NCBI RefSeq assembly: GCF_023656545.1
Contig: NZ_JAMOKF010000006.1
Coordinates: 1-64,000, forward strand
Source: Micromonospora phytophila
GTDB lineage: Bacteria > Actinomycetota > Actinomycetes > Mycobacteriales > Micromonosporaceae
DNA: 64,000 nucleotides
Reading direction: 5' to 3'
The notes beneath the pieces were generated by a model. That model ran no database searches, had not been told where the DNA came from, and was given only the letters and a program-made list of their open reading frames with translations. Below are positions 1 to 50,276 of the stretch, in pieces. Numbering within the stretch: the first letter of the stretch is position 1; each line of letters opens with the position of its first letter. The translations under genes were made by a program, and so were the position numbers.

Positions 1-710
1 ACCCGTTCTCCGGCGAGCCGGGCGCCCGCCTCTACCGCACCGGCGACCTGGCCCGGTGGCGCGCCGACGGCACGCTGGAGTACCTGGGTCGCCGCGACAA
101 CCAGGTCAAGATCCGCGGCATGCGGGTCGAGCTGGGCGAGATCGAGGCGGCGCTGCTGGCCCGCCCGGACGTGCGGGCGGCGGCGGTCGTGGTGCGCGCC
201 GACTCCGGCGAGCCGACTCTGGTCGGCTACCTGGTCGGGACCGTCGACGAGTCGGCGCTCGCCGCTGACCTGGCGCGTGAGCTGCCGGCGCATCTGGTGC
301 CGTCGGCGTTCGTCCGGCTCGACGCGCTGCCGCTGACCCCGAACGGCAAGCTGGACCCGGCGGCGCTGCCCGCCCCGGCCGCCGGCGAGGCCGCCGACGC
401 GTTCGTCGCCCCCCGCACCGACGCCGAGGCGCTGGTCGCCGAGGTCTACGCCGAGATCCTCCAGGTGGACAAGGTCGGGGCGCTGGACGACTTCTTCGCC
501 CTCGGCGGCAACTCGCTGCGCGGCATGCGGGCGATGGCCCGCATCCGCGCCGAGGTGGACGTGGACCTGCCGATGCGGGCGCTGTTCAGCACCCCGGTGG
601 TGGCCGACCTGGCCGCCCAGATCGAGCAGCGGATCGCCGCCGAACTCGACGAGCTCTCCGACACCGAGGTCGCCGCGCTGCTCGCGGCGGAGAAGGACGC
701 CCCGTCATGA
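1..710 (+). CDS. Non-ribosomal peptide synthetase, C-terminal end (A-domain end and PCP)
   Basis: The 5' end lies outside the window; the frame is open from base 3. The visible part begins in the adenylation domain at core A7 ([10 protein letters not shown]), continues through A8 ([11 protein letters not shown]) and A10 (PLTPNGKLD), and ends in a peptidyl carrier domain with the phosphopantetheine site FFALGGNSL (Ser codon 513-515). There is no condensation, epimerase or thioesterase domain after the PCP, so the tethered intermediate must pass to the next protein. The stop overlaps the next start as ATGA (707-710), which indicates translational coupling within one NRPS operon. The substrate-binding half of the A domain is outside the window, so the amino acid it selects cannot be read. 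Confidence 0.95.
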
Positions 711-3700
711 CCGACCTGAAGGATCCGGCCCGGGACGCGGCCCGGCAGGCGCTGATCGCGCAACGCCTGCGCAGGCGGCAGGCCGCCCCGCCCACGGCCC
801 GGATCACCCCGCGTCCGCCGGACGCCGAGGTGCCGCTGTCGTATGCCCAGGAGCGGGTCTGGTTCATGGACCAGCTCGCCCCGGGCGAGGCGGCGTACCA
901 CATCGCGGTGCCGCTGCGGGTGCACGGGCCGCTTGACGTCGCGGCGCTGCGCCGGGCGCTGGCGGAGCTGACCCGGCGGCACGAGTCGCTGCGCACCCGG
1001 TTCCCGGCCGACGCCGACGGCCGGCCGACCGTCGTGATCGAGGAGGCGGTGACCGTTCCACTGGCCATCGTGGACGCCGCCGACGAAAGCGCCGGGCAGG
1101 CGCTGGTGGACGCCGCCGCCGCCGAGCCGTTCGACCTGGCGAACGGGCCGCTGCTGCGGGCCCTGCTGATCCGGCTGGCCGCCGACGAGCACGTGCTGTT
1201 CCTCGGCAAGCACCACATCGTCGGTGACGGCTGGTCGGTCGACGTGCTGCTGCGTGACCTGATCACCCTCTACCGGGGCGGTCAGCCGCCCACCCTGCCC
1301 GTCCAGTACGGCGACTTCGCCCACTGGGAGGCCCGGGAGCTGGACGGGCCGCAGGCCCGCCGGCACCTGGACTTCTGGAAGCAGCGGCTGGCCGGGATCA
1401 CCCCGCTGGAGCTGCCGCTGGACCTGCCCCGCCCGGCCACCCAGACCTACGCCGGCGACTTCGTCGAGTTCCAGCTGGACCGGGCGGGCACCGACGGGCT
1501 GAACGCGCTCACCCGCTCCTACGGCGGCACGCTGTTCATGACGCTGCTCGCGGCGTACCAGGTGCTGCTGTCCCGGCACACCGGGCAGGACGACTTCGCC
1601 GTCGGGGCGTCGGTGGCCGGTCGTTCCGCGCCGGAGCTGGAGAACGTGGTCGGCATGTTCATCAACATGCTGCCGCTGCGGGCCGAGCTGGCCGGTGACC
1701 CCACCTTCACCGAACTGCTCGCGCGTACCCGGCGTAGCGTGCTGGACGGCCTGGAGCACGCCGAGGTGCCGTTCGCCAAGGTGGTGCACGAGCTGGGGCT
1801 GCCCCGCGACGTGAGCCGCTCGCCGGTGTTCCAGGCGATGTTCGTGCTGCAGAACTACGAGATGGGCCGGTTCACCGAGGTGTCGGACGCCGCCGGGGTC
1901 ACCTTCGAGTGGACGCCGATGGAGCTGCGCGCCACCCGCTTCGACTTCGAGCTGCACGCCGTCGAGACGACCGACGGGCTCTGGGGCAAGCTGGTCTTCA
2001 ACACCGACCTGTTCACCCGGGACACGGTGCAGCGGATCGCGCAGCGGCTCACCACGCTGCTGCGGGCGGTGGTGGCCGCCCCGGACACCCCGGTCTCCGC
2101 GCTGGACCTGCTCCCGGCGGGCGAGCGGGAGCTGCTGGCCGGGTGGAACGACACCGCCGCCGACTTCCCGACCGCCCAGACGCTGCACGCCCCGATCGAG
2201 GAGCGGGCCGCCCGTACCCCCGACGCCGTGGCGCTCACCTTCGAGGGCCGTGGTGTCACCTACGCCGAGCTGAACGCCGCGGCGAACCGGATCGCGCACC
2301 GGCTGCGCGGCGCCGGGGTGGGCCCGGAGACCCTGGTCGGGGTCTGCGCGGAGCGGTCGGTGGAGCTGGTCGCCGGCCTGCTGGGCGTGCTCAAGGCAGG
2401 CGGCGCCTACCTGCCGCTGGACCCGGAGTACCCGGCCGACCGGCTCGCGTTCATGCTCACCGACGCGGACGCGCCCGTGGTGCTGGTGCAGGAACACCTG
2501 CGCGACGTGCTGCCGGCCACCGGCGCGCAGGTGCTGGCGCTGGACGACGCGGCGCTCTGGGCCGACCAGCCCGCCGAGGACCCGACGCCGTCGGCCGGGC
2601 CGGAGCACCTGGCGTACGTCATCTACACCTCCGGCTCCACCGGCCGCCCGAAGGGGGTGCCGAACACCCACCGGGGCATCGTCAACCGGCTCGACTGGAT
2701 GCAGCAGACCTACCGGCTGGGCGCCGACGACGCCGTGTTGCAGAAGACCCCGGCCAGCTTCGACGTCTCGGTGTGGGAGTTCTTCTGGCCGCTGCGCGAG
2801 GGCGCCCGGCTGGTGGTGGCGAAGCCCGGCGGGCACAAGGACGCCGGCTACCTGCGCGACCTGCTGGTCGGCGAGCGGGTCACCACCGCCCACTTCGTCC
2901 CGTCCATGCTGACCGTCTTCCTCGTCGAGGACGGCGTCGAGGCGGCCACGGCGCTGCGCCGGGTGATCTGCTCCGGTGAGGAACTGCCGCTGGCCTCCGC
3001 GGTCGACTTCACCGCCCGACTGCCCTGGTGCGGGCTGCACAACCTGTACGGTCCGACCGAGGCGGCCATCGACGTCAGCTCCTGGCGGTGCGATCCGGCG
3101 CTGCTGGCCGGGCTGACCGGCGTGCCGATCGGCGCGCCGATCGCCAACCTGCGGCTGCACGTGCTGGACGCCGCCGGCAACGAGTGCCCCGTCGGGGTCG
3201 CCGGTGAGCTGCACATCGGCGGGGTGGGGCTGGCCCGCGGCTACCACCGTCGGCCCGCGCTCACGGCGGAGAAGTTCGTGCCCGACCCGTTCTCCGGCGA
3301 GCCGGGCGCCCGCCTCTACCGCACCGGCGACCTGGCCCGCTGGGTGGTCGCCCCGACCGCGTCCGGGGTCGCTCCGGCCGTACCCGCTCCGGCGGTCGAC
3401 GCCGGGCCCACCGCGACCGGCCCGACGGCCGGGACCGGCGACGTGGCCGGCCGGCCGACCGGGGTGATCGAGTTCCTCGGCCGCATCGACCACCAGGTCA
3501 AGCTGCGCGGCCTGCGCATCGAGCTGGGCGAGATCGAGAGCGCGCTGCGCGAGCAGCCCGGGGTCACCGAGGCGGCGGTGATCGTCCGCGAGGACAGCCC
3601 CGGCGACAAGCGGCTGACCGCCTACCTGGTGGGCGCAGCCGAGCACGCCGAGGTGAAGGCGGCGCTGAAGGAGACGCTGCCCGAGTACATGGTGCCGAGC

Positions 3701-6307
3701 GCGATCGTCGGTCTGGACGCGTTGCCCCTGAGCCCGAACGGCAAGCTCGACCGCCGGGCGCTGCCCGCCCCGGTGGTCACCCGCGAGGCGTCGGTGGCGC
3801 TGGTGGAGCCGCGCGACGACACCGAGCGCCTGCTGGCCGGGATCTGGTCGGAGGTGCTCGGCGTCGACACGCTCGGCATCGACGACGACTTCTTCGACCT
3901 CGGCGGGCATTCCATGCTCGCCACCCAGGTGGTCGCGAAGATCCGCAAGGCCGGGCACGGCGGGCGGCCGGTGGGCGTGATGGACCTGTTCCAGCAGCGG
4001 ACCATCCGCGACCTGGCCGCCTTCATGGCCGGCAGCGCCGGGTCGGAGGGGCCGCGCCGGCTGCTCTACGAGCTGACCAAGCCGATCCCGGCGGCGCAGC
4101 GGGTGCTCACCTACGTCTGCGTCCCCTACGGCGGCGGCAGCGCGATCGTCTACCAGCCGCTGGCGGACGCGCTGCCCGCCGGGTACGCGCTCTGGTCGCT
4201 GGCCATCCCCGGCCACGACGTCGGCCTCACCGAGGACGGCCTGCCCTTCGACGAGCTGACCAGCCGGGTCGCCGAGGAGATCCTGGAGCGCATCGAGGGC
4301 CCAGTCGCCCTGTACGGCCACTGCGGCGTGGGCAGCGCGATCGTCGCCGAGGTGGCCCGCAAGGTCGAGGTGGCCGGGCGGAACCTGACGGCGCTCTACA
4401 TCGGGGCGATGTTCCCGTTCGCCCGCCCGAAGGGCGTGTTCGCCGCGATGCGCAACCGGCTGGAGCAGCTGCGCAGCAACCGGCACTACGCGAGCTGGCT
4501 CAAGTCGATGGGGGTGGACACCGACGAGCTGGAGCCGGAGCAGGCCGACCGGATCATCAGCAACATGCGGGCCGACTCCCGCGCCTCCGAGGAGTACTTC
4601 ACCGGGCTACTCGACCGGCGGGCGCCCAAGCTGCGCGTGCCGATCATCTCGGTGGTCGGCTCCGAGGACCCGGTCACCGACTACCACACCGAGCGGTACG
4701 CCGAGTGGCAGTTCCTCAGCGACACCCTCGGCCTGGTGGTGCTGGACCAGGCCGGGCACTTCTTCCTGAAGTACCGCGCCGACGAGCTGGCCGAGATCGT
4801 CACGCGGGTCCACCCCGCGGTCGTGGCCGGCGACGTCGCGGAACTCACCCCTGCCGCCAGGGGCGAGGACGCCGGTTGGGTGGTCGCCGACCACCAGCGG
4901 ATCGGCCTGGACGACCGGCCGGAGAAGGCGGTGGTCACGCCCTCCATGGCCCGGTTCGTCGCGGTCACCGCCGGGCAGCTCGTCTCCACCACCGGCTCCG
5001 CGCTGACCGCGTTCGCCCTGCCCATCTGGCTGTTCACCCGCACCGGCTCGGTGGCCGACCTGGGGATGCTCTGGGCCCTGGCGCTGATCTGCGGCGTGCT
5101 GATGCTGCCGATCGCCGGCGCGGTCACCGACCGGATCAGCCGCCGGAAGATCATGATGATCGCCAGCTCCAGCGCCGGCGCCATCCAACTGGTCCTCGCC
5201 GCGCTGCTCTGGACCGACAACCTCCAGCTCTGGAACATCTACCTCCTGGTGGCGCTGAGCCAGGTCGCCGGGTCGTTCCAGCGCATCGCGTTCCAGTCGG
5301 CGGTGCCGCAGCTGGTGCCGAAGCGCTACCTCGGCCACGCCATGGGCATCACCCAGCTCACCAACGGCTTCGCCATGCTGCTGATGCCGGTCTTCGCCGC
5401 CGGCCTGCTGGCCGCCATCGAGCTCAGGGGCATCCTGCTGATCGACGTGGCCAGCTACGTGGTGGCGGTGCTGACCCTGGCCGTGGTCCGCTTCCCCGAC
5501 CTGCTCGGCTGGCGGCCGAAGGAACGGCTGCTCGTCGCCATCGCCAACGGGCTGCGCTACTCCTGGCAGCACCGCGGTTTCCGGTTGATGCTCGGCTACT
5601 TCGCGCTGGGCAACATCTTCCTGGCGCCCGCGCTGGTGCTCACCACGCCGCTGGTGCTCTCCTTCGGCACCGCCACCCAGGTGGCGCAGGTGGCGTTGGC
5701 CGAGGCGCTCGGCGCGGTGGCCGGCGGTGTGCTCATGTCCGTCTGGGGCGGGCCCCGGCGGCGGCGGATGATCGGCGTGCTCATCGGCAACCTGGGCACC
5801 GCGGTCGGCTGCGTGCTGATCGGCCTGGACGCCTCGCTGGCGATGATCTGTGTCGGCGCGTTCTGGCTGGCCATGGCGATGACCACGGCGCAGTCCATCT
5901 ACGCCACCATCGTCCAGGTCAAGGTGCCGCAGCGCTTCCACGGCCGGGTTTTCAGCCTGAACCAGACCATCTCCTGGTCGACGCTGCCGATCGGGTTCGC
6001 GCTGCTCGCCCCGGGCGCGACGGCCCTGTTCGAGCCGATGCTCGCCCCGGGCGGGGCGTTGGCCGGGTCGGTGGGCGCGGTGATCGGCACCGGCGAGGGC
6101 CGCGGCATCGGTTTCGCCTACGTCTGCTTCGGCGCGGCGTTGGTGCTGATCACCCTCGGCGGGTTCGCGATCCGGCTGCTGCGCCGCTTCGACCTGGAGG
6201 TGCCGGATTCGTTGCCGGACGACCTGATCGGCGCGCAGGAGCGGGAGCGCCGGCTGGCGGCCCGCGCCGCCGAACGCGAGCAGGAGCGGGTGCCGGTGGC
6301 GGCCTGA
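707..6307 (+). CDS. NRPS terminal module C-A-PCP-TE fused to an MFS transporter
   Basis: This 1866-aa protein adds the last residue, releases the peptide and probably exports it. Domains: condensation (about 40-470, HHIVGDG at 169-175, LCL-like); adenylation (about 485-985, [10 protein letters not shown] near 641); PCP with LGGHS (Ser1069); thioesterase (about 1085-1370) with GHCGVG, where Cys1206 replaces the usual Ser, and His1351 in DQAGHFF; then from about Met1414 a complete MFS transporter of 10-12 membrane helices to about 1830. The specificity residues read by alignment to GrsA are D-V-W-H-I-S-L-I-D, one change from the common serine code (inferred by eye). A Pro/Ala/Thr/Gly-rich insertion of about 35 residues sits between A7 ([10 protein letters not shown]) and A8 ([11 protein letters not shown]). 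The NRPS-MFS joint is in frame with no sign of a frameshift. The product cannot be named; siderophores and lipopeptides are possible. Confidence 0.93.
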
Positions 6308-6491: not shown

Positions 6492-7715
6492 GTGGCAGCA
6501 CCCCGCATGGCACCGCCGTCGGAGATGAGCCGCCGGCTGACGTTCCTGTTCGCGGTGGCGGCGGGAGTGGCCATCGGCAACCTGTACTGGGCGCAGCCGC
6601 TACTCGGCTTCATCGCCGGCGACCTGCGCGCCGCGACCGCGACGGCCGGCTGGCTCGTCACCGCGACGCAGGTCGGGTACGCCGTCGGCGTGCTGCTGCT
6701 CGTGCCGCTCGGCGACACGCTGGACCGCCGCCGGTTCGTTCCGGTGATGCTGCTGACCTCGGCCGCCGCACTGCTGCTGTGCGCGCTGGCGCCGTCGATC
6801 GGCGTACTCCTGCTCGCACTGGGCGTGCTCGGCGTGACAACGGTTTCCGGGCAGGTCCTCACCCCGCTCGCCGGGGACCTTGCCGGCGACGCCCACCGCG
6901 GCCGGGTCGTCGCTACCATCGGGTCCGGGACCCTCACCGGTATCCTGGCCTCCCGCACGATCAGCGGGTTCGTCGCCGATGCCGCCGGGTGGCGTGCGAT
7001 CTTCGCTCTCGCCGCGGTCGTCGCCGTCCTGCTCGCGGTCCTGCTTCATCGCGCGATTCCACCGCTGGCACCGCGGACGCGCATGCCGTACCCGGCGCTC
7101 ATCGCCTCGGTCGGCGCGGTGGTCATGCGCGAGCGGGCGGCCCGATGGACGCTGGTCCTCGCCGCCACCGGGTTCGCCGCGTTCTCGCTGTTCTGGACGG
7201 CGCTGACGTTCCTGCTGAGCGGCCCACCGTTCCGGTACCCGGTAGCGGTGATCGGGTTGTTCGGGTTGGCCGGCCTCGCCGGTGTCCCTTCCGGCCTGCA
7301 CGGCGGTCGTCTGCACGACGGTGGTTGGTCGCTTCCGGCCACCGGCGCGGCCTGGGTACTGGCCCTCGGCGCCTTCGTCGTCGCGGCGTTCGCCGGCCGG
7401 TCCGTCGTACTCATCATCATCGTGATCATCGTGATCGATGTTGTCCTCCAGACGCAGGCCCTCCTCAACCGGGCGCGGCTGTTCGCCCTCTCCCACGAGG
7501 CCCGCAGCCGGCTCAACACGGCGCTGGCCACCGGCAACTTCATCGGCGCTGCGATCGGCTCCGCCGCCGCGACCGCGCTCTGGTCCGCGGGCGGCTGGAC
7601 AGCGGTCACGATCGCGGGAGCGGCACTGTGCTGCTTCGCGCTCACCGTGTGGGCGCTCGGACGTCGGGGCCCACTCGTGATCGCTTCGCCGTCTGGGGCA
7701 GATGAGTGCACATGA
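6492..7715 (+). CDS. MFS transporter (DHA1-type efflux)
   Basis: The protein has up to 407 aa and about 12 membrane helices. The first helix region contains GNLYWAQPLLGFIAGDL, and the loop between helices 2 and 3 has the family motif LGDTLDRRRF. The start could also be 6507 or 6525 (MSRR). It lies after the NRPS terminator, so it is probably a separate unit, though export of the NRPS product is possible. The substrate is unknown. The stop abuts the stop of the convergent YdeI-family gene with no spacer. Confidence 0.85.
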   Translation: MAAPRMAPPSEMSRRLTFLFAVAAGVAIGNLYWAQPLLGFIAGDLRAATATAGWLVTATQVGYAVGVLLLVPLGDTLDRRRFVPVMLLTSAAALLLCALAPSIGVLLLALGVLGVTTVSGQVLTPLAGDLAGDAHRGRVVATIGSGTLTGILASRTISGFVADAAGWRAIFALAAVVAVLLAVLLHRAIPPLAPRTRMPYPALIASVGAVVMRERAARWTLVLAATGFAAFSLFWTALTFLLSGPPFRYPVAVIGLFGLAGLAGVPSGLHGGRLHDGGWSLPATGAAWVLALGAFVVAAFAGRSVVLIIIVIIVIDVVLQTQALLNRARLFALSHEARSRLNTALATGNFIGAAIGSAAATALWSAGGWTAVTIAGAALCCFALTVWALGRRGPLVIASPSGADECT

Positions 7716-38795: not shown

Positions 38796-40366
38796 CTGTC
38801 CACCCTGCTCGACCTGTACCGACCCGGCCTCGCCGCCGGCCGTGACGCCCAAGCTCTGCACCGCGCCGCCACGCCGGAGTTCTCCGGCTGGCTGGAGCGT
38901 GCACCGCCCCCGCCGGCGGCTGTACCCGCCCAATCCGTCTCGCTGGCACCATCGCCGCCGTCGAGACGACCACCGGCCGCATCACCCGCCAACTGCGCAC
39001 CGACGAGCTGCCCGACCGGGCTCTCTACAAGGCGTCCGGCAACCGCCGGGAAACGCAGTGTCGCGACTTCGCCTGGGTCTACGCCGGTGACGCCTACCAG
39101 GTCGTGCGCTGCGGCCTGACCGGCGGCAAAGGCGTCCCCGCATCGGTCGGCCGACACCCAATCGTCTTCGCCACCTTCACCGCACCGTCCTTCGGCGCGG
39201 TCCACCACCGCCACGTCCCCCGCCACACCTGCGCCACCCGGCAGCGCTGCGACTGCCGCCCCGCTCCCTGCCGCGCCCGCAGCACCGCCGGCACCTGCCC
39301 GCACGGGCAGCCCGCGGCGTGCTTCGCCCGCCACGACGCCGACGATCCACGCCTCGGGCAGCCCTTGTGCCTGGACTGCTACAACCACGACCACCAGGTC
39401 GTCTGGAACTACTTCTCAGGCGAGCTGTGGCGGCGTACCAAGCAGGCGATCGAACGCCACCTCGCCGCCCTCTGCCCCCAACGCGGCATCCCCCTCGTCC
39501 GGGTCGCCACCGCCTCGGGCAAGGTCCGCTGGGTGCCGCCGGTCCGGGTGTCGCACGGCAAGGTCGCCGAGATGCAACGCCGGGCAGCCGTGCATTTCCA
39601 CGCCCTGCTGCGCCTCGACGGCATCGACTCCGACGACCCGGACGCCCTCGTGCCACCACCGGCCGGCATCACCGTCGACGACCTGGACGCCGCCGTCCAC
39701 GCTGCCGCCCGCCAGATCACCGTCACCACACCGCCGCACCCTGACCAGCCGCAGGGCTGGCTGGTCGCCTGGGGCGAGCAGGTTGACGTGCGCCGCATCA
39801 ACAGCGCTGGCGGTGAGCTGACCGATAGCAAGGTGGCCGCCTACCTGGCCAAGTACGCCACCAAGGCCACCGAGGTCACCGGCCACTCCTTCACCCGGCT
39901 CACCCCCGCCACCATCGACAACTACGCCGACCCCGGAGGCGACCACACCGCCCGCCTCATCGACGCCTGCTGGCAACTTGGACGTCCCACGGACACCGAT
40001 ACCGCCAGCGGCGCCGCAACGGTCAACCGCCGTCAAGCCGGCCTTGACACCGAATCCAACGCCTACGCAGGGCTGCGTCGTTGGGCGCACATGCTCGGCT
40101 TCGGCGGCCACTTCCTCACCAAAGCACGCCGCTACTCGGTCACCTTCGGCCTGCTCCGCGACACCCGCGCCACCTACCGCCGCACTGAGGACGACGACAC
40201 CGCAGACGTCATCACCCTCTGCGCCCTCAGCTACGCCGGGTCCGGGTGGCTCAGCGACGGTGACGCCCTGCTCGCCAACACCGCCGCGAGACAGCGACGG
40301 GAGAGCAGACGCATCGGCCGGGAAGAACTCGCCCACGAAGCCTGGCTCACGGGAGCCGCCGCATGA
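38796..40366 (+). pseudogene. RepSA-like replication initiator of a pSAM2-type element, frameshifted
   Basis: The N-terminal frame reads LSTLLDLYRPGLAAGRDAQ and ATPEFSGWLER; near 38900-38918 it shifts, and the rest is in the next frame: GGCTRPIRLAGTI, VYAGDAYQVVRCGLTGGKGV, FATFTAPSFGAVHHRHVPR, CLDCYNHDHQVVWNYFSGEL. The HUH motif is VHFHALLRLDG, and the Tyr/Lys motif is VAAYLAKYATKATE. Such proteins start rolling-circle replication of actinomycete integrative conjugative elements. The best-placed start relative to AGGAGG is a CTG at 38796. The gene overlaps xis by four bases (ATGA). It is inactive if the frameshift is real. Confidence 0.8.
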
Positions 40367-40559
40367 GCCATGACCTCGCCCCGCGCTGGTACTCGCCCGC
40401 CGAGGTCGCCGTCCTGCTCGGCTTCGGCATCTCCAAGGTCAAGATGAAGATCGCCACCGGCGAGCTGCGCTCCATCAAGGATGGCAAGTACCGCCGCATC
40501 CTCCCGAATGGGTCGACGACTACATCCGCGAACAGGTCGAACGTCAGGAGGCTGCCTGA
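40363..40559 (+). pseudogene. Excisionase (Xis, AlpA/MerR-like HTH), frameshifted
   Basis: MSHDLAPRWYSPAEVAVLLG and SKVKMKIATGELRSIKDGKY form a winged HTH typical of excisionases. After RILP the frame shifts near 40500, and EWVDDYIREQVERQEAA ends at the stop in the next frame. The stop at 40557-40559 overlaps the integrase ATG. In pSAM2-type elements Xis directs excision together with Int. Confidence 0.75.
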
Positions 40560-41810
40560 TGCCTGCACGTGCCCGAGCCAACGGCGAAGGCTCGATCTTC
40601 CCTACCGTGGGTGGTGATGCCGCCGTCGACCGGGATCACGCAACGGCTTCGCCGCCTACGTCTGGGTCACCAAGCCCGACGGCAAGCGCACCCGCAAATA
40701 CGTCTACGGCAAGACCCGGGAGGCCGTCCACGACAAGTGGATCAAGTTGCACCAGCAGGCCAAGGCCGGGCCGGTGGCGACCAGCGTCCCGACCGTCGGC
40801 AGCTTCCTCACCTACTGGCTGTCGGAGATCATCGAGCCGAACCGGGCACCGTTGACCTACGCGACCTACGAGACGTTCGTCCGCCGCTACATCGCCCCTG
40901 GCCTCGGGGCCAAGCGGCTCGACCGGCTCCAGTCACGCGACGTGCAGACCTGGATCAACCAGGTGGCCCGCACCTGCCAGTGCTGCTCACAAGGCAAGGA
41001 CGCCGCCCGCGCCAAGCAGAAGCGGCGCTGCTGCGCCGCCGGTCGCTGCTGCCAGGCCGTCCCGTCGACGCGCACGGTCAGCGACATCCGGGCGGCGCTG
41101 CGGGCCGCCCTCACCCACGCCCAGGCCGAAGACCTCATCACCAAGAACCCGGCCGTGCCGGTCACCCTCGCCACCGTCCGCCGGCGGCGGGGCAAGTCCT
41201 GGTCCAGCGACGAGGCCCGCAAGTTCCTGGAGTCCGCCCGCCACGACGAGGACCCGCTCTACGCCGCCTACGCCCTGGTCCTCGTCGTCGGCCTCCGCAA
41301 GGGCGAGGCGTTGGGACTCACCTGGAAGGACGTCGACCTCGACGCGGGAGAGCTGACTGTCGGCCGTCAACTGCAACGGGTCCGGGGAAGACTGCTCCAC
41401 CGCGACACCAAGACCCAGGCATCCGACGCCACACTCCCCCTCCCCGAAATCCGCCTGACCGCGCTCAAGCTGAGAAGCAAACAACGCGACGAGGCACGAG
41501 AAACCGCCGGAAAGGCGTGGCAGGAATCCGACCTTGTATTCACCACCCGCGATGGCACACCCATCGAGCCACGCAATTTCCAACGGAGTTGGCAGACCCG
41601 GTGCGACAAGGCGGGCACACGGCCGATCACGGTTCACGACGCAAGGCGTACCTGCGCCTCGCTGCTGGCCGACCTCGACGTCCACCCACGAGTCGCCCCA
41701 TGCAGGTGCTCCGGCACGCCCGCTTTTCCGTGACGATGGACATCTACACCCAGGTCTACTCGAAGGCGACCCGGGACGCGCTCAAGCGCCTCGGCGATTC
41801 CCTCGGCTGA
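40559..41810 (+). pseudogene. Tyrosine site-specific integrase, twice frameshifted
   Basis: The N-terminus (MPARARANGEGSIF) is followed by a frame change before GFAAYVWVTKPDGKR; near 41695 a second change separates HDARRTCASLLADLDVHPR from MQVLRHARFSVTMDIYTQVY. The catalytic elements are all present: Arg in GLRKGEALGL, H-x-x-R in HDARR, and Tyr in MDIYTQVY. A Cys-rich arm (TCQCCSQGK...RRCCAAGRCC) is typical of AICE integrases. The gene lies beside the tRNA-Val att site, as expected. It is inactive unless the indels are sequencing errors. Confidence 0.82.
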
Positions 41811-41843
41811 GCCGTTGCTGCTTGGCTGCTGTACGAGCAGCAA

Positions 41844-41876
41844 AAAGGCCACCCCCAATGAATGGGAATGGCCTTT
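41844..41876 (+). terminator. Terminator of the integrase gene
   Basis: AAAGGCCA (41844-41851) and TGGCCTTT (41869-41876) form a perfect 8-bp stem ending in TTT, 34 bases after the integrase stop. There is an A-run before and a T-run after, so it may work in both directions. Confidence 0.6.
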
Positions 41877-41884
41877 GACCTGCG

Positions 41885-41926
41885 TGGGCGATACTGGGAT
41901 CGAACCAGTGACCTCTTCGGTGTGAA
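41885..41926 (-). other. tRNA-Val(CAC) 3' half, attachment site of the integrative element
   Basis: On the minus strand it reads from the anticodon loop (TTCACAC, anticodon CAC) through CGAAG, variable loop AGGTC, T-arm ACTGG-TTCGATC-CCAGT, and acceptor ATCGCCC with discriminator A. The 5' half is replaced by element DNA (CTGT...). This is the usual product of integration by a tyrosine recombinase with crossover in the anticodon loop. The T stem is perfect. The intact tRNA would lie at the other element end, not in this window. Confidence 0.8.
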
Positions 41927-42062
41927 ACAGGACGCCGCACGGACTCTGACCTGCGAAAACGAGAAGCCGCAGGAAGGGGTGGGTGCAGTTGTGCGCCGTT
42001 GCTTGCCGTTCGGTGCAGTTGAAGGCCGTTCGGTGCACCCTGTTGCTCCCAACCTGCTCCCC
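41919..42062. repeat. Att-associated repeat, copy A, with 10-bp repeats
   Basis: It begins TCGGTGTGAAACAGGACGCC beside the tRNA fragment. ACCTGCG (41949-41955) and an imperfect partner follow, then GC(A/C)GTT at exactly 41985, 41995, 42005, 42015 and 42025, and GCACCC at 42035, then TGCTCCCAACCTGCTCCCCC. Copies B and C share this order. Possible arm-type sites for Int or Xis. Confidence 0.75.
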
Positions 42063-42426
42063 CGATCCCGGGCTCGTGATCCGACTGCTGCCGGCAGGCT
42101 TACATGAAGGGTCCAGCAGGTTGTTCGGCAACGGCTCGTGGCTGCTGGCCCAGCGGCCTTGGCTGGCGGCGGCGTCCGGCCAGCGACCGCTAGCCTCAAG
42201 CGCTCCCGACCTGCTCCCACTGCCTTACGTTCACCGACCACACTCACGGGATGGCGCGCCTTATCAGCGGCAGATCAATGCACCCGTGCAGCGCTCGTCG
42301 ACACAGCGGGGCTGGCGACTTGATGCAGCAGGCTAATATGGTCGCCGGACGTTGGGAGCGTCCACTGCGGTAGACACATGCTCGGGGTGCGGAGGCATAC
42401 GTAACTCGACGAAAGGTGCGTATGCC

Positions 42427-42540
42427 GTGGACCTACGTGGGATCTTGCTGTGGGTTGTCCTAAGCGCCGCCGCTGGCGTGGTAGGCAACTTCGCGTATTA
42501 CCTCCTCAACCGGGCTTCGAGCCGCCGGCGGAGAAAGTAG
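42427..42540 (+). CDS. Small single-pass membrane peptide
   Basis: A 37-aa peptide with GTG start 42427: VDLRGILLWVVLSAAAGVVG then NFAYYLLNRASSRRRRK. One helix followed by a strongly basic tail (orientation N-out or tail-in is likely). AAAGG lies upstream. It could be a toxin, an anchor, or a spurious frame; its place beside the att site favours element cargo. Confidence 0.4.
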   Translation: MDLRGILLWVVLSAAAGVVGNFAYYLLNRASSRRRRK

Positions 42541-42827
42541 CCAGCGCTGCATAGCGCGCGCCTCTTGGCTGCAGCGTGCGATGGTAACTAGGTCTGCCCA
42601 ATCGTCGCCGCCTTGGCCGGCAGGCGCGCTACGCGGCACGAGAGTGCAGGTTCGCGTGTGATCTGCCCGATGACTCTGCAGACGCATCGGGGCTGTGGTC
42701 GGCGAATAACCAGGTCGCGACGCCATCCGTGCTTTCCAAGGCAAGATCAAAGACTGTTGCGCAATAGGCATCAACACCGCACGGACAGCCTCACCGGCGG
42801 GCGCTGACCGAGGCAACACCCAGGTTA

Positions 42828-43415
42828 TCAACGGAATTGATTAGGATCGAACGCCTGGAGTCCTTCGACGAGGTTTTGACGAACGAGCTCGAAGTCGCAT
42901 GCCAGTTCTTCAAGTTCACTTACATGCCGGTGCTCGACATCGCGTTTGAATTTCCTACGGATGCTGCGCTCGACGTGATACTCGCCTTCGTTTACCTTTC
43001 CACCGTTTGATGCTGCAATTTCGCAGGTGCCGCCCAGTGACGCGGGGCAGACCCTCCAGCTTGCGTGAACTACAGCATTGCGCCGCTTCCACACCCCATT
43101 GGCTTCTGAAAGCGCTACGCCAATCTCGGGGAGCGCCTCGTCATTGCAGCGCCTGGTAGCGTAACTGGGTTCCTTCTGGAGTCCGACGGCCATGCTGTGC
43201 AACCAGTCCCAACTCTGCCCCATGAGGAGAACATCAACGTCGTTGCCGAGTCCACCCAAGATCGCGACACACTCGCGAAGAACCTCCTCAAGGTACGCAC
43301 CCTCCCGCACCACCTTGCCGATGAAGTCGTCGAGCTCATTCGGAAAGGCCAACTTCATCGACAACGAAAGGATTTCGGGCTTATTCTTCGCCGATCCGTC
43401 ACTCATGGAAGCCAT
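42828..43415 (-). CDS. HEPN-like protein 1
   Basis: A 195-aa helical protein, ATG 43415 (or 43406). The motif KRRNAVVHASW contains R112-N-A-V-V-H117, the Rx4H motif of HEPN ribonucleases. Before it, a long helix pair (ELDDFIGKVVREGAYLEEVL; SEANGVWKRRN) fits the fold; after it lies a charged tail. Base composition is lower in GC than the flanks. HEPN proteins are often RNases in toxin-antitoxin and anti-phage systems. No obvious antitoxin (MNT) gene is adjacent. Function inferred. Confidence 0.6.
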   Translation of the reverse strand: MASMSDGSAKNKPEILSLSMKLAFPNELDDFIGKVVREGAYLEEVLRECVAILGGLGNDVDVLLMGQSWDWLHSMAVGLQKEPSYATRRCNDEALPEIGVALSEANGVWKRRNAVVHASWRVCPASLGGTCEIAASNGGKVNEGEYHVERSIRRKFKRDVEHRHVSELEELACDFELVRQNLVEGLQAFDPNQFR

Positions 43416-43774
43416 CGTGCTCGACTCGTCGTCTCATTTCAATAGGCATCCGCGACTTACTTCGGGGCCGTCGCTGGGCCGGAGAAGTTCGACGCCCTGG
43501 TCAAGCCATTGGGTTCGCCCACCAGGGGTGCGGCCGGGAAGGACATGCCGCGGTCCCGGGCGTCGGTCAGCCAGACGAACTTGGTGACCACGGGCGTCGG
43601 CAGGGTGGAACTATCGGTACTGCGGGCAGGGCTCGATCTACTGAGCCACCGGTGGGTGGCTCCAAAGTAGGCGAGATTGCTTCGGGGCCACAAAGCGCGC
43701 CGTACCCACGGGCTTCCAGGGCGTCATGGCCGTAGCTCGTCGCCCCGCACTGGTAGTCGCAATGCGTCGTTACG
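43416..43774. other. Gap between HEPN genes with a possible remnant
   Basis: On the minus strand near 43600 a frame reads TPVVTKFVWLTDARDRGMSF and ends SGPATAPK; it resembles the end of a secreted or transposon protein but I do not recognise it. No other gene is seen. Confidence 0.3.
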
Positions 43775-44443
43775 TCAATCAACCAATGCCTCTAGCGCGA
43801 TGGCGATTTTACCGACCGTGAACAGTGTGTCGTCCATGGACTCCGGTGTGAGTATTCGTTCTGCGGTCGGTTGATCCCAGTAGGATCCCGTGAGCGTGTG
43901 GGCGAAAGAGTTCCGTCGCTCCCGCACCCTTGAGACCATTTCGATGATGCGTTCCGTCTCATTTGACGAGACGTTCCGTCGCTTCAGGAATTCCTTCAGC
44001 GTTTGATCGAGCCCACTCCGCGTATCAGCACTGTCCGACAATTCCTTGAGCAAGAGTTCCAGCGCGGCGACAGCAGCCAATATGGCGGCGCCAATCGCAA
44101 TCTTCTCTGCATCTTCAACTACGCCGACTGATTCCTCAAGGACGCCGTCGGACTCAGCTTCCCACCCAGGAAAGCGATGGGATCCATCTCGCCGTTGTTG
44201 CTGAAGCCTGGCCATCAGTCGCGAGGTGGCAATCCTGGCCGAGCGAGCAACGAGTATTGTGGCGCTCAATCGGCCCTTAAACAGGAGGAACTCGACTCGA
44301 CCAAAATCGTGAAAATTTAGGTAAAGATCCGCCAGCGACTCCGGGTCATTGTCGGCATTGGCCCAATACACCTGGACATGCTCTAGCTGGTCTAGGGGGC
44401 GCGAAAGATCGGGATCCCCTTTTTCGTCGGCGTGAAAGTACAT
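43775..44443 (-). CDS. HEPN-like protein 2
   Basis: A 222-aa protein, ATG 44443. The N-terminal half (about 1-90) has a mixed alpha/beta sequence (HVQVYWANADNDPESLADLY; EFLLFKGRLSATILVARSAR). The C-terminal half (about 105-222) is helical, with AEKIAIGAAILAAVAALELL and the motif VRERRNSFAHTLTGSYW, in which R177-N-S-F-A-H182 is an Rx4H HEPN motif. Like its neighbour it has lower GC and the same orientation. A role in RNA cleavage or defence is inferred from motif and context only. Confidence 0.6.
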   Translation of the reverse strand: MYFHADEKGDPDLSRPLDQLEHVQVYWANADNDPESLADLYLNFHDFGRVEFLLFKGRLSATILVARSARIATSRLMARLQQQRRDGSHRFPGWEAESDGVLEESVGVVEDAEKIAIGAAILAAVAALELLLKELSDSADTRSGLDQTLKEFLKRRNVSSNETERIIEMVSRVRERRNSFAHTLTGSYWDQPTAERILTPESMDDTLFTVGKIAIALEALVD

Positions 44444-44848
44444 TTGGTCAGCTTTTCAGGGCGATCCGCCATGGTCAAGGTACGATACGGCCAGCGCCCT
44501 CGGGCAACGAGAGACGCCCGGCGAGAGGCGCCGAGGTAGACGGCGCGGTCCTTGCGGTAGCCGGTCGCACCTCACTGCAAGCTGAACACACCGCGCCACA
44601 TTAGGGCTACCGTGCGGCCGGCACTTGTTGTCCTGGCCCATCCTGCGATGGCCGTGCCCAGGGTGCGCTCCGACTCACTCACATCGGCTACTTAGAGACT
44701 TGGTCCAGGATCGATGTCCGGCCAAACTCGGTCCATGAGCGTGCGCCTGATCTTGCGGCCAGCGCGCTCCGGATCGCGGCTACTTGTTTCATTGACCTAT
44801 GACTGTGGCCCCGGCCAGGCTTCGGTTGAGGCGCCCGAGCAGTGAGCC
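44444..44848. other. Gap, no recognised gene
   Basis: About 400 bp without a recognised gene; it should contain the promoter of the leftward HEPN genes. Confidence 0.35.
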
Positions 44849-45067
44849 TCACTGGTGATCGGGAATCGGACCGCGCCGAGGTACACACAGCACCGTCAAC
44901 GTGCATCCGGCGGGCACATCGAGCAGGCCAGCAGGCAGCACCCCGCCGCCTGTCATCCGCAGGATGCTGTGCTCCTGCCCGCCCCATTGCAGCGCAAGCC
45001 CGATCACCGGTCCATAATCGGACCCGCTCAGCGGCGGCTCGTGCTGCCACGGCGTCGCGGTCACCAT
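44849..45067 (-). CDS. Small hypothetical protein
   Basis: A 72-aa protein from ATG 45067 with GC-rich third positions: VTATPWQHEPPLSGSDYGPV, IGLALQWGGQEHSILRMTGG, GVLPAGLLDVPAGCTLTVL. I do not recognise a family; the pattern suggests a small beta-rich domain. It diverges from the broken gene at 45073. Confidence 0.4.
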   Translation of the reverse strand: MVTATPWQHEPPLSGSDYGPVIGLALQWGGQEHSILRMTGGGVLPAGLLDVPAGCTLTVLCVPRRGPIPDHQ

Positions 45068-45072
45068 AGTCG

Positions 45073-45380
45073 GCGGGCCGCCGACCAAGCCCTCGAACGG
45101 TCGAACACGTTCTTCGCCGCCGGCCGCGTCTTGGACACCCTACGGCTGTTGCACGGTGCCCTGGCGCGCCTGATCCGCGACGATTCCGGGGTCCGGCTGG
45201 TCCACGCCACCCTCGCCACCGCCGAGGCGTACCAGCGGCTGCACCTGTACGCGGCGCCAACTCACCCTCCGGCAGCCGATCGACCTCGCAGCGGTCCGCC
45301 ACCTGCTGACCGTCCGCTACCGGTGGAACGCCGACGATGTCGCTCACGACGATCCCTTCCTGCCACCGGGACGCGACTGA
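45073..45380 (+). pseudogene. Hypothetical gene, frameshifted
   Basis: One frame reads ALERSNTFFAAGRVLDTLRL, ALARLIRDDSGVRLVHATLA and AEAYQRLHLYA; one base later the frame RQLTLRQPIDLAAVRHLLTV and RYRWNADDVAHDDPFLPP runs to the stop at 45378-45380. The shift is near 45255. I do not recognise the family; the protein would be helical and cytoplasmic. Confidence 0.45.
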
Positions 45381-45548
45381 CCCAGCGACCGCACCGGCTT
45401 GCGGTGTCCCCGCCGGCCAGTACGGTCAACCCGACTCGGCGATCGGCTGGGCGCAGATCCTCGAGACGGGGCTGCCGCGTAGCGGGCCACGACGTCATTT
45501 TCGGAATGCCCTGCCCTAGGCTAGTACGGCTACTCGGGGAGGGCAGTG

Positions 45549-46370
45549 ATGGTCGAGGGGCACGTCGTAATGATCCATGGGCTCTGGTCATCGCCGACGA
45601 CCTGGGATCGGCTCGAGCAGGTTCTGAGGGCGGACGCCGACCTGTCAGGGATCCAGTGGGCCCGGTACGGGTACCCGTCGCCCAAACTCGGCATCCCGTT
45701 TCTTCCCCGCCGGATCCCCGACTACGACGACATCGCCCAGGCCCTGGATTCCTTCGTGCAGGCCCGCGTGCCGGACGATGGACCCTGGGCCGTGGTGACC
45801 CACAGCCAGGGCGGCTTGATCCTCCAACGCTATCTCGCCTGGAAGGTGAACGACGGGCGCGGGCGTGACCTTGCCCGGATCCGCTCGATCGTGATGCTCG
45901 CGTGCCCGCACGAAGGCAGTGATTACCTGCGCCTTTTCCGGAATGTGGCAGGGTTCGGCTTTCGTCCGCAGACCGAGTCGCTGCAGCAGTTCCGCACCGA
46001 CGTCGCCGCCTCGAAACGTACGGTACTGAACCAGATCACCAACGCGACTGCGGTCAGTGACCGGACCTGCCCCATCCCGGTCCATGTCTACGCGGGCGAC
46101 AGCGACAACGTCGTGCGCCGGGTCTCGGCCCAGGCCACCTTCCCCGATGCGGGGGTGCTGCCCGGGGACCACTTTTCGATCCTCGACCCGGCCTGGCCGG
46201 GGAATGTCACGGCGGAGACCATCCGGCGACATCTGGTCACCGACTTCTCCGCACCGGCGCCATCGGCACCCGTACCCCCACCCGTAGAACAGAGCACCAT
46301 CACCATTGCGGATAGCTCCGGGTTTCAGATCGGCAACAGCAACACCCAGATCAACCGGATCGACCGGTGA
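45549..46370 (+). CDS. Alpha/beta hydrolase effector with C-terminal amyloid-signalling motif
   Basis: A 273-aa protein; ATG 45549 has GGGAGG five bases before it. The fold begins VVMIHGLWSSPTTWDRLEQV (oxyanion HG) and has the nucleophile elbow VVTHSQGGL (Ser86), acid in AGDSDNVV (Asp184 or Asp186) and LPGDHFSIL (His208), so the triad is complete as in lipases and esterases. After a Pro/Ala linker (PAPSAPVPPPVEQ) the last 20 residues contain SSGFQIGNSNTQIN, a short Q/N/G-rich motif of the RHIM/PP-like amyloid class. The next gene starts with nearly the same motif. By analogy, the motif pair would bring receptor and effector together, and the hydrolase would then attack lipids. Substrate and activity are unproved. 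Confidence 0.82.
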   Translation: MVEGHVVMIHGLWSSPTTWDRLEQVLRADADLSGIQWARYGYPSPKLGIPFLPRRIPDYDDIAQALDSFVQARVPDDGPWAVVTHSQGGLILQRYLAWKVNDGRGRDLARIRSIVMLACPHEGSDYLRLFRNVAGFGFRPQTESLQQFRTDVAASKRTVLNQITNATAVSDRTCPIPVHVYAGDSDNVVRRVSAQATFPDAGVLPGDHFSILDPAWPGNVTAETIRRHLVTDFSAPAPSAPVPPPVEQSTITIADSSGFQIGNSNTQINRIDR

Positions 46371-49300
46371 ACGTGACCGTCTCCGGCAGTTCCGGGTTCC
46401 AGATCGGTGACGGCAACCTCCAGATCAATGTCGCCGGCGAATCCGCCACCGCCCAGGCCACGAATGTCTGGTGGTCCACCGTTTGGTTGCCGGCCACCGA
46501 ACCCGTGCTGAGCAGCGACATCGTGCTGGCCGGGCGGCAGGCTGCAGCCGATGGCCTACGAGCGGCCCTGACGAGCGACGAGGCCATCATCTCGGTCGGC
46601 GGTGACTTGGGCGTGATGGAGTTCAAAGCGTTCTTGGCCGCCGCGCTGGTCGGCAGCCCGCTCGCGACGCGGGCGTTCTTCGTCGGCGGCGCGACCACGC
46701 TCACCATCGACGGCGACGCTGCGGACCCGCCGATCCTGATGCTGGCGGCCGGCACCGAACCGTCAAGTCTTCCGTTGACAGGCTCCCACAAGATCGTCCT
46801 GTTTGGTCGGGGTGCCATTCGACCCGACCTGACCGTTCCCGCCGTCGACGGGATCGCCGTCGCGCGAATGCTAACCGCATCGCGCATCGATCAGAGCCAG
46901 GAGGTTCGGCTCGGCGCGCTCGCTCGCCGCGGCCTCGAACAGCTACGCCGGGCGCTGTCGCGCTTCCCGCAGTACCCGGAGGCCAGCTGGGCGGTGACCC
47001 CGGACCGGGTATGCCGGCGGCTGAGCTTGCTCGGCGAGTTCACCGCTAGGGACTCGCCGATGCTAGCCGGATTCGCGGGCGTGGCCCACGACCTGCTGGA
47101 GGACACGGCAGGTCATCTACTCACCGACCCCGACCGGCCGTTGTTCGGCCGGCTCGGCATCCACTGGTACCTGCAGGACCCGGAGGACGCCTTCCTGCTG
47201 TTGCGCACCAGATTCACGGCTCAGGACCTGGAATCATTCGCGGACCTTGCGGTGCGGGTGCTACGCGACGGCGAACCAGCTTCGCCGGTCCTGCGCCGTG
47301 GCGTGACACGCACCCTGCTCATGCTGGCCGTGCACGGCGACGACCTGCGGTACGACCAATCGGCGCGGCGCGGCTCCGTGATCGTCGATGCGGTCGTCCA
47401 TGAGGTGCTTGCCAGTAGGTCACCAGCGAGGTGGAGATCGCTGACCGACGTGATCGGGACGATCGCCGAGGCCGCGCCAGGCACCTTCCTGGACGCACTC
47501 GCGCACGCACCGGAGTGGCAGGCGGCGATGTTCGGCTCGGAAAGTGACTACCCGGCATTCCTGTGGGCTCTGGAACTCCTGGCCCGAGCCGTCGAGAACT
47601 TTGATGAGGCGGTGGACGCGCTAGCCCGGCTGGCCGCCCTGGACCCCGGTGGAAGGCTGTCGAACCGGCCGTCGGAGTCGCTGGCCGGAGTGTTCGACTG
47701 CGGGTTCCCTCAGACACGGGCGTCGCGTAGGCACCGGCAGCGGGCGCTGCGGCGGATCCTGCAGGACCATCCCACCGTCGGCCGGCAGCTGCTCCGGGAC
47801 CTCCTGCCCCACGGCGGCGTCATCCGGACCGCTCACCCGCAACCACAGGTCCGGCAATGGCCGCTGCCGGAAACGGACCCACCGAACGAGGTGTACCAGG
47901 CGTTCCGCGACGTCGCCGCGCTCGCCATCGACGACGCCGGCACGGATCCGGTGCGATGCGCGGAACTGGTGCCGTCCATCGACGCGATGCCGGCCGAGGA
48001 AGGCGTGGCTTTCCTGCAGGCTCTCGCTGACCTGCCGGTCCCCGACCGGATGCCGCGCCGGCAGCTGTTCGAGGCCCTCACGGATCTGGCGGGGTTGCAC
48101 CAGGGGCACGCCGACGAAGGTTGGGCACTGCCACAGGAACAGGTCGACGAGGTGGCTCGCATCGCCGGACTGTTCCGACCCGACCACGCCGCCGACCGCC
48201 ACCATTGGCTGTTCGCCGAATCGTGGCCGCGCCCCGGTCGCGGCGACCGCACCACCGGCCTCGGGCTGTATCAGGCCCGGACCGCGGCGGTCGCGGAGAT
48301 CATGTCCGAGGCCGACGGCTTCGCGGCCCTGCTTGCCCTCGCGGACGAAACCGGACACGGTGAGCTCATCGGCGAAGTCCTGCCACGCCAGCCCGACGAA
48401 GGATCGCTGCTGTCCTGGCTCACCGGCGAACGTCACCATCTCGCCTTCGAATACTTTGCCACCCAGATCCGCAACGGCACACCAGCCCGGCGGGCCGATC
48501 TACTCGCCGACGCTGGAGATGCCGCGCGCAGGGCAGCGATCCTGCTCGCGTCCCGGGATGAACGCTGGGCACTCGAACAACTGCCTACCCTGGACGCTCC
48601 CACCGCGGACGCCTACTGGCGCAGCTTTCCCAGTCGCGCCTTCGACTCCGAGCTCGTCGCCGACGTCGCGGCCGGTCTGTGCAGCGTCCACCGGTTCACC
48701 GCCGCGCTGGAGCTCGTTTCCCTGCACGCAAACGACGCTGACACCGCCGAGGTTGCCCAGCAGGCAATTCGAGCCGCGGAGGGATTCATCGCTGCCGGCA
48801 CCGACGCCGTAGAGTCTCATCTCGTGTCGCGGCACGATCTGCAGAGCGTGATCGACCTCTTGGCGCGGCATCTCAACGTCCTCGACCGTCACCGGGTCAT
48901 GAACATCGAACTCGCTTTCAGCGCCAAAATCGGCGGATTGAACCCCCGGCTGCCGGTTACCGCGGAGCTGATGCAGGAAGATCCGGCGGTCTTCGCGACC
49001 ATCGCGATAACCAGCCTGCAAGGCCCGACCCGCGCATCGAAGATCGCCGCTTGGTATGCGGTCAGGGCACCCCGCCGGTGTCCCGGCTCGGCCCCCGACG
49101 GCTCGGTCCAACTGGCGGCGCTGCTGAAATGGACACACGAAGCACGGAAACAGTTCGCAGCGGCGGACGTGCGAGCGTTCGGTGACCGGCGCATCGCGGA
49201 AGTCCTTGTGCACGCGATCCCCGCATCGCTGGAGGTGATCGGCGAACTGATCGAAGAGATACGCAGCAAGGACCTCGAACGCGGGATCGCGACCGCGCTC

Positions 49301-49504: not shown

Positions 49505-49628
49505 CTAGTGACGACCAGAGTTAAAGCTCCGCACCACACGGAAGCACTCGGTCACTCCTTTTCCTCAACGCTGACACGACAGCAGGCGGGCTGGAGGGGC
49601 TTCTCGGCGCCGACGACGAGAGCCGACC

Positions 49629-50160
49629 TAAGCAGGCGGGCTGACGCCTTCGGTCTTCCCTGGGAGGTCACACCGGCCGGCTCGCCTACATCACCGCAGG
49701 TCAAAGGCCTCGTTCCCGTCCGGTGTCGGTGAACACTTCGGGCGTGGTGACCACTTAGCCAACCTGCACCCAATCTGCTCCCACTCGCAAGGCCAGGCCG
49801 CCCAGCAGCTCCTTACCGCCGTGACCAGCGCATACTCCCCTGCCAGGCAACATAGATTAACGTCGACTGCTGCCCAGAATCGCGGAGCACTCCGGTGTGA
49901 AGCAGGACGCCGCACCTACTCTGACCTGCGAAAACGCAAGACCGCAGGTTGCGGCGTACGCCGTTGGACGCCATTCGGTGCCGTTGAGCGCAGTTCAACG
50001 CCGTTCAGCGCACCCGGCTGCTCCCAACCTGCTCCCCCCGAACTGGTTTCCCACCAGGGCCGCCGATCACCGACCGCCGATGGATCGTTAGCCGCCGACC
50101 CCCAATGCATCGGCTGGCACCAGGGCCGCCCCGGACGCGGCATCGGTTGACTGGGCGCGC
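49629..50160. repeat. Att-associated repeat, copy B, with 10-bp repeats
   Basis: Long diverged repeat of 61814-62370 (copy C): shared blocks include TGGGAGGTCAC, TCACCGCAGGTCAA, GTGAACACTTCGGG, CCTTACCGCCGTGACC, GCATACTCCCC and CATAGATT. ACCTGCG (49924-49930) pairs with CGCAGGT (49943-49949). GCCGTT/GCCATT/GCAGTT units stand at 49960, 49970, 49980, 49990 and 50000 with GCACCC at 50010. It lies directly after the receptor gene. No tRNA fragment accompanies it. The remaining bases to 50276 are the NADAR gene's upstream region. Confidence 0.7.
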
Positions 50161-50276
50161 TCACGAACACCGCGCACTGTCAGCGGCAGATCCGGATGGT
50201 GGCCAGCGAACTCGGTTGCCGCTCTGTCGATGCCTGTGACACGGTGCAGATCCCCGACCCCCGCTCCGAGGCCCAG

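Follow-up and report, generated by a model that had tools for sequence, protein, structure and literature searches.

How does a peptide assembly line pass its product to the pump that exports it, and what does it mean when both are encoded as one protein? The question is raised by a gene near the start of a stretch of Micromonospora phytophila DNA (64,000 nucleotides, positions 1 to 64,000 of contig NZ_JAMOKF010000006.1, assembly GCF_023656545.1; hereafter the window), which encodes a nonribosomal peptide synthetase (NRPS) termination module and a major facilitator superfamily (MFS) transporter in a single chain of 1866 residues. The module consists of condensation (C), adenylation (A), peptidyl carrier (PCP, or T) and thioesterase (TE) domains. 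An earlier note on this DNA had reported the join and suggested that synthesis, release and export would be united at the membrane, an arrangement it considered unusual. We put a probability of roughly 0.65 on the proposal that the protein is a membrane-tethered termination module of an assembly line of NRPS and polyketide synthase (PKS) type, whose cysteine-type TE would release a Ser-ended, perhaps reactive product beside a built-in exporter; its location, the export and the product are what we infer from sequence and a structure model.

One reading frame, conserved among relatives

Six Pfam domains, all above their cut-offs, follow one another in the protein: Condensation (residues 41–477), AMP-binding (498–847), AMP-binding_C (942–1013), PP-binding (1042–1106), Thioesterase (1137–1365) and MFS_1 (1422–1756), the last (PF07690) scoring 89.3 bits against a gathering cut-off of 33.4. 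With the motif HHIVGDG in the C domain and DFFDLGG, of the DLGGHS type, in the carrier domain, the first part qualifies as an NRPS termination module. A linker of ∼38 residues leads from the TE to a 12-helix MFS with motif A (Table 1). Residues 1331–1440 contain no in-frame stop and third-position guanine-plus-cytosine (GC) content is even across the junction (TE 0.99, linker 0.92, MFS 0.98), so that no frame change is visible there. These observations bear out the claim that a TE and a complete MFS share one chain without a stop.

Relatives were collected by a tblastn-confirmed scan (62 loci), whole-genome searches and a plasmid collection. Outside the window's genome, 88 open reading frames (ORFs) hold a TE and an MFS; as ten contigs had been fetched twice, these represent 78 distinct sequences, 77 of which have both domains complete in one ORF. 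The exception (L080, from Micromonospora sp. NBS 11-29) is only a piece of a disrupted frame, the orthologous gene being split up in its assembly by either draft error or pseudogene formation. None of the 77 relatives has a stop or frameshift corresponding to residues 1370–1414, which the earlier note had named as what would refute the fusion, and apparent stops in the homologs from G022 and G044 were dismissed since their coordinates place them at the ORF's own end. Gene calls cut or split the upstream NRPS part in a few loci (L028, L057, L081), leaving the TE-MFS part unaffected. The draft state of the window's genome (628 contigs, the window being the start of contig C559) might have suggested that an assembly or sequencing error joined two genes; this can practically be dismissed, as it is refuted by the 77 distinct fused relatives, which include a frame on the complete chromosome of Dactylosporangium fulvum (NZ_CP073720.1).

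Named hosts belong to five families: Micromonosporaceae, Pseudonocardiaceae, Streptosporangiaceae, Catenulisporaceae and Streptomycetaceae (Streptomyces clavuligerus and Embleya plasmids). A single alignment spans TE and MFS in 23 of 61 relatives, the window's genome counted. In an even sample of the family (121 genomes), 49, from 21 of 44 genera, match with E no higher than 1e-90; among the alignments listed, one spans both domains in 40 of them and one domain at a time is covered in 9, of which two (G466 and G505) proved to be fused when the ORFs were read out, the other seven being counted from alignments and not as one ORF. In a sample of the phylum (396 genomes; two candidates scored per genome, so that low-scoring second copies could escape), 112 pass E = 1e-30, a full-length match occurs only in the window's own genome, and the remaining matches listed cover TE or MFS alone. 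Of 370 matching plasmid records, five (two from Embleya and three from S. clavuligerus) cover 80% or more of the query. The word "unusual" therefore suits the phylum, but not the Micromonosporaceae, where the fusion is ordinary; it is recurrent, probably of single origin, and not peculiar to the window's genome. Upstream of the TE, the architectures vary: C-A-T, A-T-C-A-T (L095), C-A-T-C-T (L092) and, in a protein of 3,989 residues (L097), C-A-T-KS-AT-T-C-A-T.

The ratio of nonsynonymous to synonymous differences per site (pN/pS, uncorrected and climbing with distance) in five close Micromonospora orthologs (L056, L071, L025, L036, L029) is 0.18–0.23 for the MFS, 0.13–0.25 for the TE and 0.46–0.77 for the linker; in four more distant orthologs (L058, L060, L061, L068) the values are 0.39–0.64, 0.33–0.56 and 0.68–1.04, respectively. 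By this measure, purifying selection acts on the MFS as it does on the catalytic domains, and only the linker is loose. Across the 26 rows of alignment A2, a tryptophan in the linker (W360 of that alignment; residues 1391–1398, window 4877–4900) hardly varies. It is predicted to lie in a strand and may dock against the TE or against the membrane.

The junction also bears on whether internal initiation or proteolysis additionally, or mostly, yields the MFS as a protein of its own, which would render the fusion partly formal. GTG codons with upstream AGGA- or GGAG-like stretches occur at residues 1392 and 1409 of the window's protein, and among the relatives such a GTG is found at one aligned place in 12 ORFs and at another in 9. 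However, a site of this kind lies near the MFS start in 24 of the 88 fused ORFs (27%, duplicates counted), compared to 373 of 1,869 control windows of equal size (20%), so there is no clear enrichment and the sites are not conserved. We regard a separate MFS as quite improbable.

The thioesterase and the last adenylation domain

The nucleophile of the TE is a cysteine, which the earlier note had overlooked, as it had the nearest class, that of the obafluorin synthetase ObiF1. All 88 aligned rows, made up of the window plus 87 ORFs with L080 excluded, carry GHC, and so do 77 of the 78 distinct outside sequences, the L080 fragment being the exception. The solved TE closest in sequence is that of ObiF1 (PDB 6n8e, E = 1.6e-31), followed by the GHS thioesterase 6vap (1.4e-18) and SulM (8w2c, 1.7e-9), while Foldseek ranks ObiF1 6n8e first and SulM 8w2d second by fold. 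Cys1146, Asp1254, His1284 and Arg1190 of ObiF1 align with C1206, D1321, H1351 and R1256, respectively, and the window's TE has a Cys-Asp-His triad with the aspartate at the position it occupies in ObiF1 and RifR. Gly1173 of ObiF1 aligns with Ala1234, which adjoins a glycine. The strict GxCxG turn of ObiF1, in contrast, is absent: the turn GHCGVG of the window (4316–4333) has one extra residue, as in most relatives, and GHCxG is found in only 6 of the 88 aligned rows, all of them distant members and one a duplicate. According to the ObiF1 paper, the cysteine and the form of the triad favor β-lactone closure, and the C1146S variant of ObiF1 is reported to give hydrolyzed product (PMC6668435); the SulM paper argues similarly for β-lactam closure (PMC11298585). 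Arg1190 of ObiF1, the counterpart of R1256, is important for product formation in that enzyme. Some NRPSs end in a Cys-TE without a fused MFS (L106–L109, L129).

The last A domain of the window is of serine type. The positions of its ten-letter code, DVWHISLIDK, were set by motif rules that we take to be the standard ones. Very similar serine codes are in print, namely DVWHFSLVDK (PMC3795760) and DVWHLSLIDK (PMC10634486). Two of the 78 distinct outside sequences lack a readable code, one further code is unsound as its last module has no A domain (L092), and two are shaky as the YGPT motif was not found in them (L093, L095). Among the 76 readable sequences, 67 have DVWHxSL(I/V)DK, 5 have a DFTK-type code, which we take to be Asp-like, one has DLYNMSLIWK, presumably Cys-like, and three have others. 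Most of the Ser codes come from orthologous clusters of one type and so do not amount to independent evidence. A β-lactone as the product of the whole family was rejected, since some of the last A codes are Asp-like or Cys-like.

A more specific proposal can be formulated from these two domains: in this actinobacterial NRPS family the Cys-TE would close a strained or reactive ring (a serine β-lactone in the Ser-ended majority), which would pass into the attached MFS and hardly ever be free in the cytoplasm. If true, this would be a covalent machine for synthesis, release and export, and would offer a way of mining genomes for new electrophilic natural products. We consider it rather unlikely, and do not make it our principal claim because the window misses the strict GxCxG motif and some relatives probably end without a β-hydroxyl residue.

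The transporter

In alignment A1 (20 sequences), R356, R359 and R360 of MFS motif A are invariant and D355 is nearly so. A model of the PCP-TE-MFS part (26 sequences) has a mean pLDDT of 80.2 and a pTM of 0.57. Its residues 380–802 were superposed by VIA-align on solved MFS chains with Z up to 37.3, the match list being filled by the MFS part. Motif A of MFS proteins sits in the cytoplasmic loop joining helices 2 and 3, which would put the N terminus of the MFS, and hence the TE, in the cytoplasm and hold the module at the inner membrane. The distribution of lysine and arginine would place the TE on the same side, since all eight such residues of the inter-helix loops lie in loops 2–3, 6–7 and 8–9 and none in the odd-numbered loops.

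The nearest named NCBIfam models are the efflux pumps TIGR00900, Mef(A), Mef(B) and EntS, all matched below their cut-offs; TIGR00900 (2A0121 H+ antiporter) gives 154.1 bits against 319.6, and EntS (NF007792) gives 69.9 bits against 324. These models also bear on the idea that the MFS serves above all to anchor or scaffold the megasynthase at the membrane, or to import a precursor, and that export is not its role. Tethering of this kind has a parallel in cereulide synthesis, where the enzyme is reported to need tethering to the membrane by a transporter (PMC7527721). However, the MFS retains motif A and its invariant positions, selection on it is similar to that on the enzyme domains, and the nearest named models, albeit matched below cut-off, are efflux pumps. 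We find an anchor or importer improbable.

Origin of the fusion

In a tree of 46 MFS sequences, a branch with support 100/99 separates 27 fused from 19 unfused sequences, with long branches and uneven composition flagged among the unfused rows. The corresponding TE tree (46 sequences) separates the same numbers with support 93/91; the unfused Cys-TE L106 branches next to the fused clade, and ObiF1 forms a long branch near the base. TE and MFS distances among the 27 proteins are correlated (r = 0.93, rho = 0.81), as common descent alone would predict.

Unfused relatives of the MFS are found beside NRPS genes. Of four cyanobacterial records, three (Trichormus and two Nostoc plasmids) have the MFS gene behind an NRPS gene, at 14, 1 and 32 bp, respectively, and the TEs of these NRPSs are of Ser type (GWSMG, GYSFG, GWSMG); in the fourth (Nostoc NIES-3756) it lies among iron-uptake genes. 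In the Micromonospora relative L096, an unfused MFS relative follows an NRPS gene whose tail we read by eye as a reductase domain, and in L094 a stand-alone Ser-type TE and an MFS are adjoining, separate genes. The NRPS-adjacent genes suggest that the MFS lineage was already linked to NRPSs, and one fusion of such an MFS to a Cys-TE probably founded the fused family. Two genomes (G104 and G361, of 2.2 and 2.5 Mb) encode free-standing MFS proteins related to the fused clade (L121 and L122; model score 423 bits), and no NRPS domain was found in the stretches read around them.

This history leaves room for a plainer account, in which the fusion ensures only that synthetase and exporter are made in equal amounts and inherited together, the product diffusing to the pump with no hand-over. 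A poorly conserved linker of variable length is in keeping with this account, as are the cyanobacterial MFS genes 14, 1 or 32 bp behind the NRPS gene, for which co-transcription probably served. On the other hand, no unfused row falls within the fused clade of the 46-row MFS tree, and TE and MFS diverge in step, although simple linkage predicts both of these as well. We therefore treat it as a serious possibility, somewhat short of an even chance.

Proposed function

Tethering with coupled export would be the natural reading of a release domain and a transporter conserved in one chain, and a Cys-type TE would give a chemical reason for coupling the two. In this mechanism, the last A domain would load serine and the peptide chain would be transferred to Cys1206. 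Ring closure, perhaps through the Ser hydroxyl, or another mode of release would then yield a small, possibly reactive product at no more than one linker length from the MFS, which would export it, probably as a proton antiporter. Such an arrangement would keep down the amount of free product in the cytoplasm and its hydrolysis ahead of export. Any chemistry beyond the release of a Ser-ended chain by a Cys-TE is a guess on our part. Of the earlier suggestion that synthesis, release and export are joined at the membrane, what stands is that release and a full transporter share one conserved chain, with the MFS under selection and its transport motif in place; membrane location, export and hand-over of the product are at present deductions.

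Several observations weigh against tethered release and export. Linker length among the fused relatives ranges from 11 to 74 residues, and so weakly conserved and variable a linker does not suggest a fixed interface between TE and MFS; nor does the pTM of the model fix the placement of one relative to the other. Beyond the fused clade, both nucleophile types occur intermingled in the TE tree, with the Ser-type L130 and L143 among the Cys-type L107–L109 and L129, so that the cysteine alone does not determine the reaction. The Asp-like (five, one of them shaky), Cys-like (one) and three other last-A codes imply that one chemistry cannot serve the whole family. Finally, a free-standing TE-MFS protein of 713 residues (L170:4316–6457, minus strand, genome G480) has its nucleophile replaced by glycine (GHGGAG) and retains MFS motif A; no NRPS domain was found in its ORF or in the 13 kb fetched. 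This is either a remnant or a fusion put to new use solely as a pump, and TE activity is thus not always retained in TE-MFS proteins.

Comparison with known systems

ObiF1 (C-A-PCP-TE-MbtH) has the same domain order and, like the fused protein, an extra C-terminal domain past the TE. However, that domain is an MbtH-like protein and not a transporter, and the reported A code of ObiF1, D/A/W/G/C/G/M/I, differs from that of the window. The enterobactin synthetase EntF is likewise described as C-A-PCP-TE with a Ser-type A code, and its product is exported by an MFS protein of related kind, EntS; in contrast, EntF is described as trimerizing and yielding a macrolactone. EntF has a Ser nucleophile, and EntS is encoded by a separate gene. 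The cyanobacterial systems above share the homologous MFS immediately 3′ of the NRPS gene and differ in having two genes and a Ser-type TE. The TE of SulM (sulfazecin synthesis, β-lactam forming, PDB 8w2d) shares the PCP-TE fold and the Cys nucleophile, but is a weak sequence match, lacks a transporter and has Gln-Cys-Asn around the cysteine (PMC11298585).

Tethering by other means is known. The cereulide synthetase CesAB is reported to be held at the membrane by its transporter CesCD, as in our proposal, but non-covalently, by an ABC-type transporter and through C domains; the same source also cites PpsE-MmpL7 (PMC7527721). In LplT-Aas, reported in some bacteria, a biosynthetic enzyme shares its ORF with an MFS transporter (PMC11416262), although this fusion serves lipid repair and involves no NRPS. 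The MFS-like part is N-terminal in the NCBIfam acyltransferase model NF006386 (1147 positions; weak match, positions 52–371, E = 0.0013). Our searches of the open-access literature brought up no description of an NRPS-MFS or TE-MFS fusion. Thus, enzyme-MFS fusion and transporter-tethered NRPSs are already known, whereas these searches yielded no paper on a covalent NRPS-TE-MFS fusion. NCBI automatic annotation uses names such as "non-ribosomal peptide synthetase/MFS transporter", so annotation software has probably met the fusion.

Gene cluster and surroundings

Position 1 of the window is the contig start and lies inside an upstream NRPS gene, whose stop codon shares the sequence ATGA (707–710) with the start codon of the fused gene. 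In a complete genome (G006), the upstream NRPS and the fused gene stand in intact order within the series LanB-type N-terminal protein, A-T-C-T, PKS (KS-AT-DH-KR-ACP), TauD, MbtH, C-A-T and C-A-T-TE-MFS. A separate 3.7-kb contig of the window's genome (C384) carries a PKS end, TauD, MbtH and the start of a C-A-T gene, and this genome very probably has the same cluster, broken by assembly. A search of the window's own draft genome did not turn up the LanB-type gene, which may be missing there or may have escaped assembly. In a set of 72 loci that offer 11 kb of context or more (three of them with an unfused MFS, and most spanning only 10 kb upstream), a TauD relative occurs in 53, an MbtH relative in 59 and a LanB-type relative in 3; a PKS count (62 of 72), which carrier-domain matches inflate, was not used. 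Membership in the detoxin/rimosamide group, suggested by the TauD gene, was rejected: those clusters are described as needing an NRPS/PKS hybrid ending in KR-T-TE and a dioxygenase, whereas the G006 cluster has TauD but a separate KS-AT-DH-KR-ACP protein without a TE.

Five proteins of ∼740–780 residues match only the N-terminal lantibiotic dehydratase family (PF04738). Three are in TE-MFS loci (L086:77–2386, L099:3–2249 and L099:11848–14070), one is beside an unfused NRPS and MFS (L096:8843–11146) and one beside a Ser-type TE (L154:178–2526). As the last NRPS residue is often serine, glutamylation or dehydration of NRPS-bound Ser by these proteins is conceivable.

A separate second MFS gene (PF07690) lies at 6525–7715 on the plus strand, 217 bp 3′ of the fused gene. 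It was rejected as a cluster member, as no homolog was found at E = 1e-8 among the called genes of the 72 related loci, and it is probably unrelated to the cluster. Farther on, positions 40000–60000 carry traces of mobile elements, a phage-type integrase (40747–41733) and an IS110-family transposase (57913–59115), and have a GC content of 0.64–0.67 compared to 0.69–0.74 in the first 20 kb.

Table 1. Features of the fused gene and the adjoining NRPS gene in the window
Feature	Position	Strand	Basis or remark
Fused gene	707..6307	+	C-A-PCP-TE-MFS, single 1866-residue frame
Upstream NRPS gene, 3′ end (end of A domain, then PCP)	3..710	+	Frame open at contig start
Condensation domain, residues 41–477	827..2137	+	Pfam; HHxxxDG as HHIVGDG
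Adenylation domain, residues 498–1013	2198..3745	+	Pfam; ten-letter code DVWHISLIDK, serine type
Peptidyl carrier domain, residues 1042–1106	3830..4024	+	Pfam
Thioesterase domain, residues 1137–1365	4115..4801	+	Pfam; triad Cys1206-Asp1321-His1351
Nucleophile Cys1206 codon (within GHCGVG)	4322..4324	+	Alignment of relatives and ObiF1
Linker from TE to first transmembrane helix, residues 1376–1413	4832..4945	+	Weakly constrained
MFS transporter, residues 1414–1821	4946..6169	+	12 predicted helices
MFS motif A (from residue 1471)	5117..5146	+	Motif search; conserved positions in alignment A1

Significance

The hand-over of a product from an assembly line to an exporter is usually asked of loose complexes; here both partners are one conserved chain in many species, and a single-gene fusion makes the hand-over testable. 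The near-strict link of TE and MFS with a Cys nucleophile points to unusual release chemistry, and a GHC-type TE followed directly by an MFS may serve as a search signature for uncharacterized, possibly reactive products.

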